From assembly GCA_025054715.1 (NCBI GenBank), contig JANWYH010000003.1:1-60774 (forward strand): 60,774 nt of DNA, in the 5' to 3' direction. The notes below the pieces were generated by a model. The model saw only the letters and a list, made by a program, of their open reading frames with translations, was not told where the DNA came from and did not search any database. Origin of the DNA: Pyrinomonadaceae bacterium. Lineage in GTDB: Bacteria > Acidobacteriota > Blastocatellia > Pyrinomonadales > Pyrinomonadaceae. The position numbers and the translations under genes are program-made. Each line of letters starts with the position of its first letter. Positions within the stretch are counted from its first letter, which is position 1. Shown piece after piece: positions 40,427 through 46,394 of the stretch.

Positions 40427-42109
40427 TCAGATCAAAGCTCCATTTATCCTTTCCAGCCCTTCCATTACATCACCACTGATATGAACATGTAAAATTCGCC
40501 GTTTCTTTCCACTTAGAACTAGAAAATCTCCGATTGCCTGAGCCGATTTTACCACCGCAAAACTGTACTTACGATTTGGAATAGGTAGTTGATGCTCATC
40601 ATTGGCAGTTATCTGAAGAAAAACTCCGCTATTTGGACCACCCTTGTAAGCCTGACCAGTCGAATGAAGAAATCTCGGCCCGAATCCTATACAAGTAGCA
40701 CAAAGCTTCTTATGCAAGATTTTATGACGTATCTGCTGTAGGGCCTCTTCAATCTGTGAATCCATCTTAAGATAAGCCAAAATAGCAAAATAATCGCCTT
40801 CTTGAATATGCTCGATGTGAGCTTCTAAAAATTTTGCCAGGCTCTTTTCTTCACCAACAAATTTTTCTAGATTAGCACGATAACTCTCATCAGCAAATAA
40901 GCTAACTCCATCAGACTCAAAAAATGGTCTTTTTTGAGCAAGTTCACCTGAGGATTCATACTCTTTCATCAATCTTCTAGTTTCAACTTTAGTAGATTCA
41001 ACATCTGGCTGATCGAAGGGATTTACCTGCATAATAGCACTAGCAACAGCCGTTGCAAACTCCCAACGGAAAAACTCTTGACTCAATGAAAACTCATCTT
41101 TTACTTCAATCCTCACAAACGGATTACCGAAGGCTGCAAAACCTTCAGAATCAATCGCATTCGAGTCTTTGAATTTCAAATGGACGAAAAGACGGTCATC
41201 ATCATAATCAGATAGCTTGGGCAAAGGCTTTTCTTTATCAATTGGTATTATGGCTTTCCCTTCTTTTCCTGTGCTTTCAGCAATTAGCTGCTCGAGCCAA
41301 GCACCGAAACTTTCTATTTCTTTAGAACAAAAAATCGTGAGCTTGTCTTTTCCGAGCTTCCAGCAAACTCCCAAAATAAGTCCCAGAATTGCTCCATAAT
41401 TTTTCTCCGTTTGATTTAACTTGCAGATTTCTGACATAAAAAGAGCTTCTTTAAGAAGTCTCTCAACATCTATTTGCATCGCGCTTGCCGGTATAAGCCC
41501 AAAAACCGACAATGCCGAAAATCTCCCTCCAATTTGTGGCTCACCTAGAAAAATTCGGCTAAAACCTCTTTCTCTAGCCAAAACATGAAGCTTAGTGTTT
41601 GGATCAGTTATCGCAACAAAATGCTTACCAGCCTTATCTTCGCCCAACAAAGCAGAGACCTTCTCGTAGAAATACTCTCTTAGGCAGTCAACCTCTAGAG
41701 TAGTCCCAGATTTTGAAGCCACAATAAAAAGAGTCTTTTCGGGAGCAATCCTTTTTTCAACTGAAACTATTTGCGCCGGAACAGTTGAATCCAAAACAAA
41801 AAAATTATCTTTCTTGAATGTGCGAGCTAAAACCTCCGCACAAAGCGATGAGCCACCCATACCGAGCAAAACTATAAATTCAAAGTTTCTTGAGAACTGG
41901 GCAAACTCGTGGTATTTTTCCAAATCAGCTACTTCTCTTTCAGCAATCCGCAGCCAACCAAGCCACTCCGATTCGTTCCTGCCAGTCCAAAGCCGTGCAT
42001 CTCTCTCCCAAAGAAGTTGCACCTTATTCTGCAAACGCCAATCTTCTGCTTCCTTGGCAACCAAATCTTCGACGTTGTTTGGCAAGAAATAAAAAAAGCG
42101 ATTCAGCAT
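40427..42109 (-). CDS. pgi: Glucose-6-phosphate isomerase (PGI/SIS family)
   Basis: 560 residues. The SIS domain has LLGMGGSSLCAEVLAR and FIVASKSGTTLEVDCLREYF; the C-terminal part has FGPRFLHSTGQAYKGGPNSGVFLQI, containing the conserved His. These match the diverged PGI seen as the second half of transaldolase-PGI fusions, here stand-alone without a transaldolase domain. AAAGGT precedes the ATG. It is divergent from the LexA-like gene with only 71 bases between them, so the palindrome there could also affect pgi. Confidence 0.9.
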   Translation of the reverse strand: MLNRFFYFLPNNVEDLVAKEAEDWRLQNKVQLLWERDARLWTGRNESEWLGWLRIAEREVADLEKYHEFAQFSRNFEFIVLLGMGGSSLCAEVLARTFKKDNFFVLDSTVPAQIVSVEKRIAPEKTLFIVASKSGTTLEVDCLREYFYEKVSALLGEDKAGKHFVAITDPNTKLHVLARERGFSRIFLGEPQIGGRFSALSVFGLIPASAMQIDVERLLKEALFMSEICKLNQTEKNYGAILGLILGVCWKLGKDKLTIFCSKEIESFGAWLEQLIAESTGKEGKAIIPIDKEKPLPKLSDYDDDRLFVHLKFKDSNAIDSEGFAAFGNPFVRIEVKDEFSLSQEFFRWEFATAVASAIMQVNPFDQPDVESTKVETRRLMKEYESSGELAQKRPFFESDGVSLFADESYRANLEKFVGEEKSLAKFLEAHIEHIQEGDYFAILAYLKMDSQIEEALQQIRHKILHKKLCATCIGFGPRFLHSTGQAYKGGPNSGVFLQITANDEHQLPIPNRKYSFAVVKSAQAIGDFLVLSGKKRRILHVHISGDVMEGLERINGALI

Positions 42110-42142: not shown

Positions 42143-42170
42143 TTGTAAAGCTTGCTAGCTTTACTATACA
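42143..42170 (+). promoter_or_regulatory. Promoter of the LexA-like gene with an internal palindromic operator
   Basis: TTGTAA (42143-42148) and TATACA (42165-42170) are 16 bases apart. A perfect inverted repeat, GTAAAGC-N6-GCTTTAC (42145-42164), overlaps the -35 and fills the whole spacer, where a repressor would block RNA polymerase. The predicted start is only about 4 bases before the ATG at 42181. The divergent pgi gene could share the site. Confidence 0.6.
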
Positions 42171-42180
42171 ATTTTACGGA

Positions 42181-42756
42181 ATGCTCACACGAAGACAACG
42201 ACAAATTTTTGATTTTATCTGTGACTTCATGGAAAGACGCGGTTATCGTCCATCCTATCAACAAATAGCGAAACATTTCGGCATTAAATCAAAAGCTACG
42301 GTTGCAAAACACATAACTCTGTTGGAAAAACTCGGACTGATACGCCGCCAGCGAATAAATGGAAGTTTCTATATTGAGATACTCACATCGCCTAAAACCT
42401 TAGAAGAAAACTTGTGTAGAATCGAATGGCTCGTTGAAGACAATCAGCCTTTACTAATTTCTCGCTCGTTGCTTAAAACAAAAATTGATCTGCTCTACGC
42501 ATACCGCATGCCCGACGATTCCATGAATGAAGCCTTCATCATGCCCGGCGATCTCGTGCTTTTGGAAAGAACAAGTGAAAATCCGAAAAACGCGGACATC
42601 GTGCTCGTAAATTTTGAAGGCTCGCTTCTACTAAGAAGGATTTTCTTCACAAACCAGGCAATTGAATTAAAACCTGAAAACAAGAGTCTCAAATCCATTT
42701 TTACAACCAATCTTAAAATAGAAGGCGTAATGAGGTTGCTTTTACGTTCCGTCTGA
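42181..42756 (+). CDS. LexA-like winged-helix regulator with a degenerate autoproteolysis domain
   Basis: 191 residues. The N-terminal winged helix (about 1-65) matches LexA: LTRRQRQIFDFICDFMERRGYRPS, then IAKHFGIKSKATVAKHITLLEKLGLIRR. The C-terminal S24 fold keeps Ser114 in the PDDSM motif and FIMPGDLVLLER. The catalytic lysine position is Arg152 (LLLRRIF, aligned with TVKRL), and the Ala-Gly cleavage site is missing: the segment reads RIEWLVEDNQPLLI. The protein should bind DNA but not cut itself. It may be a second, non-SOS LexA paralog; a normal LexA could lie elsewhere in the genome. Confidence 0.85.
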   Translation: MLTRRQRQIFDFICDFMERRGYRPSYQQIAKHFGIKSKATVAKHITLLEKLGLIRRQRINGSFYIEILTSPKTLEENLCRIEWLVEDNQPLLISRSLLKTKIDLLYAYRMPDDSMNEAFIMPGDLVLLERTSENPKNADIVLVNFEGSLLLRRIFFTNQAIELKPENKSLKSIFTTNLKIEGVMRLLLRSV

Positions 42757-42789: not shown

Positions 42790-42819
42790 AATATAAATAT
42801 GTATAAAGGAACGAAAACT

Positions 42820-44256
42820 ATGGAACACTTAAGCCCGAGCGCCAGCTATTCGATGACTTTTCGGTTAAAAATAGAAAATCATCCGAAGAAATTAGGCGAA
42901 ATAACAACAGCAATAGGAAAAGCAGGCGGAGATATAGGTGCAATCGATATTGTTTCAGTTGGTAAAGATTTTCTAATCAGAGACATAACCGTTAATGCAG
43001 CTTCCGAAGCTCACGGTGAGCTAATAATCAAAGCCATAAAACAAATCAACGGCGTTGAAATTGTAAATGTATCTGATCTTACCTTCCTGTTACATCTCGG
43101 CGGAAAGATCGAAATTGTCTCAAAAAAACCGCTAAAAACACGCGCCGACCTTTCAATGGCTTACACGCCGGGCGTAGCTCGTATATCTCAAGCAATTCAT
43201 AAAGACCCAGAAAAAGTTTTCACTCTTACCATAAAAAAGAACTCCGTTGCAGTAGTATCCGATGGAACCGCAGTTTTGGGGCTCGGTGATATTGGTCCCG
43301 AAGCAGCAATGCCAGTTATGGAAGGAAAATGTCAGCTCTTTAAGGAATTCGGCGGAGTTGATGCTTTTCCTATATGCCTGAAAACAAAAGACCCCGAAGA
43401 GATAGTTAGAACCGTAAAAAACATATCCGTAGCCTTTGGCGGTATAAATCTCGAAGATATATCAGCTCCGAGATGCTTTGAGATAGAACAAAGACTAAAA
43501 GAAGAGTTAGACATACCAGTTTTTCATGATGATCAACATGGAACAGCCGTTGTTGTGCTTGCTGCCCTTATAAATGCCCTAAAAATCGTCAACAAGAAAA
43601 TCGATGAAATAAAAATCGTAATAAGCGGCGTAGGAGCTGCCGGTGTAGCCTGTACAAAGATATTGATAGAGGCAGGAGCAAAAAATTTGATAGGATGCGA
43701 CCAATCAGGCGCAATATATGAAGGAAGACAAGAAAATATGAATTGGATAAAAGAATGGTACGCCAAGAACACAAACCCAAACAAAGAAAAAGGAAGCGTT
43801 CATGACGTAATCAAAGGAGCGGACGTCTTTTTAGGACTAAGCGTCTCGGGACTTCTTACAAGAGAAGACTTAAAAAACATGGCAAAAGATCCGATAGTTT
43901 TCGCAATGGCAAATCCAATTCCAGAAATAATGCCTGAACAAGCCGAAGGACTAGTAGCTGTAATGGCAACCGGAAGAAGCGATTACCCAAATCAAATAAA
44001 TAACGTATTATGCTTTCCGGGCATCTTCCGAGGAGCGCTCGATTGTAGAGCTTCCCAGATAAACGAAGAAATGAAATTAGCTGCAGCAAAAGCTATCGCC
44101 AGCATAATCAGCGAAGATGAACTTCACCCAGATTATATAATCCCGTCGGTCTTTGATAAACGCGTCGTAATGGCAGTCGCAAAGGAAGTTGTAGAAGCAG
44201 CTTACAAAACAGGTGTTGCAAGAAAAGAACGCCTCGAAAAAAACGAGGTTTCTTGA
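42820..44256 (+). CDS. NAD(P)-dependent malic enzyme with N-terminal ACT domain
   Basis: 478 residues from ATG 42820, chosen because AAAGGA precedes it; an earlier ATG at 42799 lacks one. The ACT domain (about 8-85) is followed by the malic domain (SMAYTPGVARISQAI, VSDGTAVLGLGDIGPEAAMPVMEGK with the catalytic lysine, VFHDDQHGTAVVVLAAL) and an NAD-binding domain (VISGVGAAGVACTKILIEAGAKNL). It makes pyruvate from malate. The ACT domain suggests amino-acid control. Only an NAD or NADP choice is unclear. Confidence 0.93.
   Translation: MEHLSPSASYSMTFRLKIENHPKKLGEITTAIGKAGGDIGAIDIVSVGKDFLIRDITVNAASEAHGELIIKAIKQINGVEIVNVSDLTFLLHLGGKIEIVSKKPLKTRADLSMAYTPGVARISQAIHKDPEKVFTLTIKKNSVAVVSDGTAVLGLGDIGPEAAMPVMEGKCQLFKEFGGVDAFPICLKTKDPEEIVRTVKNISVAFGGINLEDISAPRCFEIEQRLKEELDIPVFHDDQHGTAVVVLAALINALKIVNKKIDEIKIVISGVGAAGVACTKILIEAGAKNLIGCDQSGAIYEGRQENMNWIKEWYAKNTNPNKEKGSVHDVIKGADVFLGLSVSGLLTREDLKNMAKDPIVFAMANPIPEIMPEQAEGLVAVMATGRSDYPNQINNVLCFPGIFRGALDCRASQINEEMKLAAAKAIASIISEDELHPDYIIPSVFDKRVVMAVAKEVVEAAYKTGVARKERLEKNEVS
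44232..44254 (+). terminator. Short hairpin at the end of the malic enzyme gene
   Basis: CCTCG (44232-44236) and CGAGG (44244-44248) form a five-base stem with an A-rich loop, followed by TTTCTT. It lies within the last codons of the gene. The stem is short, so termination may be partial. Confidence 0.4.
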
Positions 44257-44312: not shown

Positions 44313-44939
44313 ATGGGACTTAACACGGTTTACAAAGCAAGAACTTGGAATTTGAGCGACCTGAATGGGATTTCTAACAGAACCTTAGAAATACATTTCA
44401 AGCTTTATGAAGGTTATGTCACAAATACAAATCTCTTGAATGAAAAAATAGCCGAACTTATAAAAGACGGCAATCTCGATCCGACAAAAACAGCAGCATT
44501 TAGCGAATTAAAACGCCGCTTCGGCTTTGAATACAACGGAATGGTCTTACATGAATACTACTTCGACAATCTTACAAAAGACGGAAGTGGCGATCCATCA
44601 AAAGATTCTGCCTTTTACAAAGCTGCAGAAGCAAGTTTCGGAAGTTATGAAACATGGAAGGCAGATTTCATAAATGTCGGCAAAATGAGAGGCGTAGGCT
44701 GGGCTATCTGTTACCAAGACCCCGTAACTGGCACCCTGTCAAATCATTGGATAAATATGCATGAGACAGGAAATGTAGCTGGCTATAAACCTATCTTGGT
44801 CATGGATGTCTGGGAACATGCCTTTATCCTCGACTATGTGCCAGCAGATAGACCCAAATACATAGAAGCTTTCTTCTCAAATATAAACTGGGAAGCTGTA
44901 AATTCTCGACTAATTGCCACAGAAACCGCAAAAGCTTAA
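44313..44939 (+). CDS. Fe/Mn-family superoxide dismutase
   Basis: 208 residues. Metal ligands are preserved: His in EIHFKLYEGYV near residue 28, His in MVLHEYYFDNL, and Asp and His in DVWEHAFILDY. The usual HHxxYV segment is shortened to LYEGYV, so the second-sphere His30 of E. coli SOD is absent, as in a known bacterial subgroup of Fe/Mn SODs. There is no signal peptide; it is cytoplasmic. Converges on the uracil-DNA glycosylase genes with a shared terminator. Confidence 0.92.
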   Translation: MGLNTVYKARTWNLSDLNGISNRTLEIHFKLYEGYVTNTNLLNEKIAELIKDGNLDPTKTAAFSELKRRFGFEYNGMVLHEYYFDNLTKDGSGDPSKDSAFYKAAEASFGSYETWKADFINVGKMRGVGWAICYQDPVTGTLSNHWINMHETGNVAGYKPILVMDVWEHAFILDYVPADRPKYIEAFFSNINWEAVNSRLIATETAKA

Positions 44940-44943
44940 TAAC

Positions 44944-44983
44944 AAAAAAGGCATTTCTTCAAGATTGAAGAAATGCCTTTATC
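44944..44983. terminator. Bidirectional intrinsic terminator between SOD and the UDG pair
   Basis: A perfect 14-bp stem, AAAGGCATTTCTTC / GAAGAAATGCCTTT (44947-44960 with 44967-44980), with a six-base loop has T-rich flanks on both strands. The stop codon of the second UDG gene (44959) lies within the stem. Confidence 0.85.
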
Positions 44984-45531
44984 TTTTTCATATCTTCCCA
45001 AACTTCTCTTTTCTTCGATGCATCTCGCATAAGATAAGCAGGGTTATATGTAGGCAAAAGTTTTGCCCCGTAAAACTCATAAAATCTTCCGCGAAGCAAA
45101 CTAATCCGTTGTTTTGTGTTTAATAAAACTCTCGTAGGAGTGTTGCCAAGCGTAACTATAAGCCTCGGACTTAAAGCAGAAATTTCCCGAAGTAAGAAAG
45201 GAGTAAAAAACTTCAGCATCTCGTGAGTAATTTCTTCTCCTTCGCAAATAAACTTGATTACATTCGTTAGATAACAGCTCTTACGATCCAGCTCTATCGA
45301 ACCAAGAATTTTGTCAAGCAATTCCCCCACAGGTCCCCTGAAAGGTTTTCCCGACTCTAGATCAGGCGGACCGGGAGATTCGCCGATAAAAACTATTCCT
45401 GATGAAGGTTCACCATCTCCAAAGATAAAAATCCTATTAGGAAACAGCAACCTACCTTTTTGAAGAATCTCCTCGTAAATTTCTTCAAGAGTTTCTTTTT
45501 TAGCTGGATCTGTAAAAAGCGGAAGTTGCAT
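44959..45531 (-). CDS. Degenerate family-4-type uracil-DNA glycosylase paralog
   Basis: 190 residues. It has the UDG fold cues FIGESPGPPDLESGKPFRGPVGELLDKIL and LTNVIKF, but lacks the N-terminal CxxC and the other cysteines that hold the 4Fe-4S cluster. The second motif reads TYNPAYLMRD, with Asn163 instead of the usual His. The GEAPG motif is ESPG. The last 35 residues are almost the same as the upstream gene's. It probably has lost or changed glycosylase activity. It starts by a one-base overlap (TAATG) with the upstream UDG. Confidence 0.85.
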   Translation of the reverse strand: MQLPLFTDPAKKETLEEIYEEILQKGRLLFPNRIFIFGDGEPSSGIVFIGESPGPPDLESGKPFRGPVGELLDKILGSIELDRKSCYLTNVIKFICEGEEITHEMLKFFTPFLLREISALSPRLIVTLGNTPTRVLLNTKQRISLLRGRFYEFYGAKLLPTYNPAYLMRDASKKREVWEDMKKIKAFLQS

Positions 45532-46394
45532 TACTGAAAGCTTTTCAGATAGTCTCGCACTTTTTTCATATCTTCCCAAACATCTCTTTTTTTAGATGGA
45601 TCACGTAAAAGATAAGCAGGATGAAACGTCGGCATAACCTTAATTCCCTGAAAGTCCTGAAATTGACCTCTTATCTTCGTAATAGAAACCTTTGTATTCA
45701 AAAGATACTGACATGCTGTACTTCCTAAAGTCACAATGCAAACTGGACGGATAACAAAAATTTCTCTTATAATAAACTCCCGACAAACCTTAGCTTCTTC
45801 AGGCGTTGGTTGACGATTTCCCGGCGGACGACAACGATTGATATTTCCTATGAAAACCTCTTCGCGCTTTAATTCAATAGCCTCTATTATCTTCGTAAGA
45901 AGCTGTCCTGCTCGCCCTACGAAAGGTTCACCGCGAATATCTTCATCCGCACCAGGTGCTTCACCAATGAACATCAACTTCGCATTTGGATTTCCTTTGC
46001 TATGCACTATTTGAGTTCTATGTTTATAAAGTGGGCATCTATGACAATCACCTATGTCAGCACGAATTTTCTCAAGGTTATCTTGGTTTTCAGCAGGAGT
46101 AATCGTATCAAAAAGCAAAACCGGTTTTTTTTCGGAACTGTCTAAATTCCCGATGTTTAGCTTCGAAGGCCTTAGTTTTTCTATTATATTTGCTAACCTT
46201 TCGTTTCTTTCGGCTTGCTTTTCTTGAGATGACAAACTAATTGATGGTTTGAAAACCTTGGCTTCTTCACTACTCTTTATTTCTGGGACAGTTTGCTCCT
46301 GTTTTTCAATCCATAAGTCTCGAACCCCTAAATCGCGAAGGTAAGAAAGATTAGCCCTTAAACCTGAAATTAACTCCTTTAATTCTTCTTTCAT
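45531..46394 (-). CDS. Uracil-DNA glycosylase, family 4 (iron-sulfur type)
   Basis: 287 residues. A ~110-residue N-terminal extension precedes the catalytic core (about 113-285). Cys117 and Cys120 (CHRC), Cys188 (NRCRPPGNR) and Cys204 match the four 4Fe-4S ligands. Motif A is FIGEAPGADEDIRGEPFVGRAG and motif B is TFHPAYLLRD with His258. It removes uracil from DNA in base excision repair. The N-terminal extension is low in conserved features and of unknown use. ATGA overlap with coaBC. Confidence 0.94.
   Translation of the reverse strand: MKEELKELISGLRANLSYLRDLGVRDLWIEKQEQTVPEIKSSEEAKVFKPSISLSSQEKQAERNERLANIIEKLRPSKLNIGNLDSSEKKPVLLFDTITPAENQDNLEKIRADIGDCHRCPLYKHRTQIVHSKGNPNAKLMFIGEAPGADEDIRGEPFVGRAGQLLTKIIEAIELKREEVFIGNINRCRPPGNRQPTPEEAKVCREFIIREIFVIRPVCIVTLGSTACQYLLNTKVSITKIRGQFQDFQGIKVMPTFHPAYLLRDPSKKRDVWEDMKKVRDYLKSFQ

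Follow-up and report, generated by a model that had tools for sequence, protein, structure and literature searches.

At the locus studied here, a gene for a LexA protein is transcribed divergently from pgi and is followed on its own strand by genes for an ACT-domain malic enzyme and for a protein which we take to be superoxide dismutase-like. The features below lie in the window, by which we mean the whole stretch of 60,774 nt that was analysed:

40427–42109, minus strand: pgi, the divergent neighbour (PF00342)
42143–42172, plus strand: promoter-like pair TTGTAA-18-TACAAT, read from the sequence, its −10 element ending 8 nt before the ATG
42145–42164, no strand: perfect palindrome GTAAAGCTtgctAGCTTTAC in the pgi–lexA divergent intergenic region, a putative operator read from the sequence
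42181–42756, plus strand: lexA, encoding a LexA ortholog of 191 aa predicted to be non-cleavable (alignment, profile matches, tree)
42184–42351, plus strand: LexA winged-helix DNA-binding domain, residues 2–57 (PF01726, 60.5 bits)
42433–42456, plus strand: VEDNQPLL, residues 85–92, at the position of the canonical LexA Ala-Gly cleavage site (alignment)
42487–42732, plus strand: S24/LexA C-terminal domain, residues 103–184 (PF00717, 50.6 bits; model match)
42520–42522, plus strand: codon of Ser114 at the nucleophile position, kept (alignment)
42634–42636, plus strand: codon of Arg152 at the position of the general-base lysine, Lys to Arg (alignment)
42799–44256, plus strand: ACT-domain malic enzyme gene, 42 nt past lexA, the conserved downstream neighbour of lexA in the clade described below
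44313–44939, plus strand: presumed superoxide dismutase-like gene, downstream

The lexA product has the architecture of LexA, a wHTH followed by an S24 domain, and its PF01726 score compares with a cut-off of 23.7 bits. Against the NCBIfam LexA equivalog TIGR00498 it scores 91.0 bits, below the cut-off of 110.95. We aligned 109 LexA proteins, the best among the relatives found, with E. coli LexA. In this alignment Ser114 is retained within PDDSM, Arg152 (LLLRRIF) falls on Lys156 of E. coli LexA, and Ala84-Gly85 is replaced by Asp87-Asn88, the common PLL serving as anchor. These data confirm what the preliminary description had read at the three positions, namely a kept serine, an arginine for the catalytic lysine and a VEDN stretch in place of the cleavage site. 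The protein therefore lacks both the complete Ser-Lys dyad and the Ala-Gly site of a LexA SOS repressor. The LexA of a congener, G043 (L007), likewise keeps the serine, has arginine at the lysine position and is without Ala-Gly, which excludes a sequencing error in the window.

An AlphaFold2 model of the protein (pLDDT 92) found its best PDB match in Thermotoga maritima LexA (3k2z; Z 17.0), with 178 residues aligned at an rmsd of 10.4 over both domains, a value that presumably reflects a different orientation of the two domains. The C-terminal domain of the model, compared with LexA C-terminal domains, gave Z of about 15 and an rmsd of 1.8–1.9 (1jhh, Z 15.1 and rmsd 1.8). Sequence and model together thus indicate a retained LexA fold from which the self-cleavage switch is gone and, by analogy with the mechanism in E. 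coli, RecA should not inactivate a LexA that has no cleavage site. The substitution of lysine by arginine might by itself leave cleavage intact; our literature search found no paper on K156R in E. coli LexA.

The preliminary description had taken the protein for a LexA paralog, a view that its relationships contradict. Within the host genome (2.45 Mb, 99% complete) it is the sole PF01726 match and the sole strong S24 match, so that no canonical LexA accompanies it; recA is present in a single copy and no Y-family polymerase was found. We searched 162 genomes of the class, detecting relatives in 112, and built a LexA tree from an alignment stripped of the dyad columns (Ser and Lys) and of the region around the cleavage site. 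The host protein falls into a single clade (SH-aLRT 98) of 41 proteins from ten genera (g1, g3, g4, g5, g12, g13, g14, g19, g22 and g28), which is sister to 46 canonical orthologs. The motif AAG occurs in 0 of the 41 clade members, so that the predicted loss of RecA-driven self-cleavage, the clear reading of the host sequence, is conserved throughout the clade; in the sister orthologs AAG, Ser and Lys are present in 46 of 46. The same genera split off on one branch of the RecA tree (support 100/99). Since the LexA clade and the RecA branch coincide, the simplest reading is that the cleavage site was lost once and vertically, in the ancestor of the clade, and that the dyad decayed afterwards. 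Many genomes of genus g22 have no PF01726 match at all, indicating that LexA is dispensable there. The family as a whole thus includes members whose LexA is intact, a clade in which LexA has lost its cleavage site, and genomes without LexA.

Gene order provides a further characteristic of the clade. Of 38 informative clade loci, 30 have an ACT-domain malic enzyme gene 3′ of lexA in the same orientation, either immediately adjacent or separated from it by one or a few genes; none of the canonical loci does. The two genes are 42 nt apart in the host and 4 nt apart in genus g28. Among the eight informative members without the malic enzyme gene at this position is congener G043, where polyamine-type genes (identified by eye) come after lexA and a protein 89% identical to the product of 44313–44939 is encoded nearby. 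Upstream, hflX is divergent from lexA in 25 clade loci, no hflX was found upstream of lexA in g3, g4 and g12, and the host has pgi in its place, starting at 42109 on the opposite strand, 71 bp from lexA. The downstream pair has thus outlasted several changes of the upstream neighbour. Such conservation suggests that in most of the clade lexA is most likely co-transcribed with the malic enzyme gene, although the shared order might instead be a matter of common descent and not of function. The proposal that LexA controls the malic enzyme accordingly gains indirect backing from gene order, whereas control of pgi does not, pgi adjoining lexA in the host only among the loci read.

The lexA promoter itself is laid out much as in most of the clade. 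With the −10 element so close to the ATG, the lexA transcript probably has no leader, and the same holds for most clade members, where the distance is 6–13 nt; in many canonical lexA genes, by comparison, the leader is longer and the −35 element reads CTTGACG. The palindrome noted previously in the host promoter is real: its perfect 8-bp arms, GTAAAGCT-tgct-AGCTTTAC, overlap the −35-like TTGTAA (42143–42148) and end just short of the −10 TACAAT (42167–42172). Perfect dyads with arms of at least 8 bp arose in 1.1% of dinucleotide shuffles of the 71-bp intergenic region (P about 0.01) and occur in 17 of 855 windows of 71 bp across the region; taken by itself, the palindrome is therefore no more than modestly unusual. 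A scan of the host genome returned one perfect and one single-mismatch copy, and 13 of the 14 near-matches with context read fall inside open frames, for which reason we rejected the palindrome as the operator of a regulon. Autorepression through this element had also been proposed, and is weakly supported: the palindrome is the sole perfect copy in the genome, it is absent from the lexA promoter of G043, and clade lexA promoters have no dyad in common (the top centre was 35% paired, the mean being 26%).

A dyad, AACAAAAGC-TTGAC-GCTTTTGTT, is present in canonical lexA promoters of g21 and g23, together with variants showing compensatory changes, and in the genomes listed its exact copies occur at lexA alone. 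The window palindrome and this dyad have an AAAGC...GCTTT core in common, with spacings of 6 and 5, respectively, so that the palindrome may be an operator private to the host. The host genome holds no perfect copy of the canonical-type lexA operator.

A different motif marks the DNA-repair genes of the family. TGTTTCA-N4-TGAAACA is common to recA promoters across the family: of 29 genomes, 26 have it in front of recA with at most two mismatches. Upstream of a gene for an XRE-family protein it occurs with at most two mismatches in 22 of 30 genomes and with at most three in all 30; for shuffled upstream sequences the best match mostly had 5–6 mismatches. Sites upstream of ruvA, ruvB, RecA-like ATPase and Rad52-like genes were read by eye. 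In most clade genomes the motif is strongly over-represented, with 5–15 sites genome-wide against 0–4 for the control. The host genome has one site (control, 2), which lies outside the window:

G000:C17:148281–148298 (L180:1501–1518): perfect TGTTTCA-N4-TGAAACA between the XRE gene and a SWIM-like/Rad52-like gene

The Rad52-like identity of the host gene was confirmed by Pfam. The recA promoters of the host and of G043 (L152, L157) are without the motif, unlike those of most of the family. In two recA open frames, of 710 aa (L158, G053) and 756 aa (L159, G066), the RecA match comes in two pieces, probably owing to inteins.

We considered LexA as the protein that binds this motif and rejected it on two counts. 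Genomes without LexA keep the motif, at ruvA (G080), imuA (G106), dnaN (G086) and the XRE gene (G095), as named from their translations, and among the best upstream matches scanned none with at most two mismatches lies upstream of lexA. The XRE protein is encoded in 107 of 118 family genomes, nearly always in one copy and at roughly 57–70% identity, and the motif stands upstream of its own gene, of recA and of repair genes, which is the arrangement of a DdrO/IrrE-like system. From this co-location the motif most likely belongs to the XRE-family protein. All of the 16 genomes tested encode an M78/IrrE-like protein, and in three (G114, G130 and G064) its gene lies near that for XRE. The host's, of 200 aa (L218; G000:C5:20815–21105), reads EEICH rather than HExxH, and EExxH is also found in the other clearly read ortholog frames. 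This makes IrrE-type cleavage doubtful and weakens the case for a plain IrrE-type protease.

The distribution of this motif bears on whether clade LexA could still be an SOS repressor, sitting constitutively on damage-inducible promoters and relieved by a housekeeping protease, a modification or a ligand. The DNA-binding helix is conserved with that of canonical LexA, and tuning by phosphorylation has been proposed for the LexA of Synechocystis (PMC7567884). The repair genes of the family, however, have a motif of another kind, which is retained even in genomes lacking LexA. Exact copies of AACANNNNCTTGACGNNNNTGTT (g23), the strongest candidate for a canonical operator, occur in the genomes listed only at lexA, and no Y-family polymerase was found in the host. 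We therefore regard a constitutive SOS repressor as unlikely.

A protein that has lost its trigger might alternatively be a functionless relic on its way to gene loss, as the drift of the catalytic residues and the many LexA-less genomes of g22 could suggest. Selection argues against this. Whole-gene dN/dS is 0.08–0.30 for the clade pairs where it was computable, and is low in the DNA-binding domain, the best conserved part of the protein, with the clade and canonical consensus differing at few positions of a nearly identical recognition-helix region. Open frames are intact in 41 of 41 clade lexA genes and the leaderless promoter layout is conserved. Clade LexA is thus still under purifying selection, and a decaying relic is quite improbable.

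The dyad positions, by comparison with the DNA-binding domain, vary widely. Among the 41 clade members the nucleophile position is occupied by Ser in 15, Ala in 23, Gly in 2 and Met in 1, the general-base position by Lys in 14, Arg in 14, Gly in 7 and other residues in the remainder, and both Ser and Lys occur together in only 4. An altered self-cleavage, in which Ser114 assisted by Arg152 attacks a different peptide bond, would suit the serine kept in the host and G043 and the equal frequency of Arg and Lys, but is very improbable given that Ala-Gly is missing in 41 of 41 members and Ser is replaced in 26 of 41, which leaves no protease activity that the clade could have conserved in common.

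The explanation we favour, and consider probable, is that a vertically inherited, sole LexA lost its cleavage and became a regulator that RecA cannot switch off, the repair genes being under another regulator, most likely the XRE-family protein. According to this scheme an ancestor shared by about ten genera would have lost the cleavage site, after which the protease dyad would have decayed while the DNA-binding domain stayed under purifying selection. LexA would now be a repressor or regulator whose activity is either fixed or tuned in another way, plausibly controlling the lexA–malic enzyme unit, its concern perhaps being central carbon metabolism. Counting against the scheme, the analysis found neither an operator nor a regulon for the non-cleavable LexA, and the recA promoters of the host and G043 are without the repair-gene motif. 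Repair genes would carry in TGTTTCA-N4-TGAAACA the operator of the other regulator, most likely XRE, and the loss of LexA cleavage would have been tolerated because the damage genes appear to answer to it. More tentatively, and with less confidence than we place in this scheme, the XRE repressor and an M78-like partner devoid of HExxH could run the damage response, freeing LexA to become a constitutive regulator tied to the malic enzyme and carbon metabolism.

The host protein resembles canonical LexA (E. coli; T. maritima 3k2z) in fold, wHTH, S24 domain, serine position and orthology, and differs from it in the absent Ala-Gly, in the Lys-to-Arg change and in that the damage genes of the family carry another motif. 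The closest precedent is the LexA of Synechocystis sp. PCC 6803 (sll1626), in which the Ala-Gly site is missing (Gly-Gly) and the dyad is broken (Ser to Asp), which was reported as unusual among the cyanobacteria analysed, and for which non-SOS regulation has been suggested (PMC7567884, PMC3091678). As there, the host has a sole LexA with Ala-Gly and dyad lost; unlike there, the loss defines a 41-member, ten-genus clade of a different lineage, and lexA has a malic enzyme gene as its neighbour. For the XRE protein the nearest comparison is Deinococcus DdrO/IrrE, a LexA-independent XRE/M78 pair controlling recA and other repair genes (PMC8072749). The two are alike in the motif at the XRE gene's own promoter and at recA and ruv genes, in independence of LexA and in the presence of an M78-like protein, whereas the operator of the family is different and EExxH stands in place of HExxH. 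DdiA of Myxococcus xanthus has been described as an XRE-family co-regulator of a DNA damage response (PMC12288472), a role comparable to the one proposed here for the XRE protein of the family. No paper on LexA in this bacterial group was found in a literature search made under the presumed taxon.

These observations would turn an isolated oddity of Synechocystis into a traceable evolutionary event, with the site lost once, the dyad decaying repeatedly and LexA absent elsewhere in the family, and they make the fate of a master repressor after loss of its trigger directly testable in one family. In addition, they suggest that the family has a DNA-damage regulon independent of LexA and as yet uncharacterised, for which an operator is defined and a regulator can be proposed.

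Genera g21 and g23 encode a second, canonical LexA (L118, L120, L122, L123, L125, L126 and L127), whose operator-like palindrome is different, for example GATTTTCG-N8-CGAAAATC. In g23 (L123, L127) the second LexA gene is adjoined by relatives of two overlapping, mutually related genes of the window, 44959–45579 and 45531–46394, which by eye are uracil-DNA glycosylase-like.
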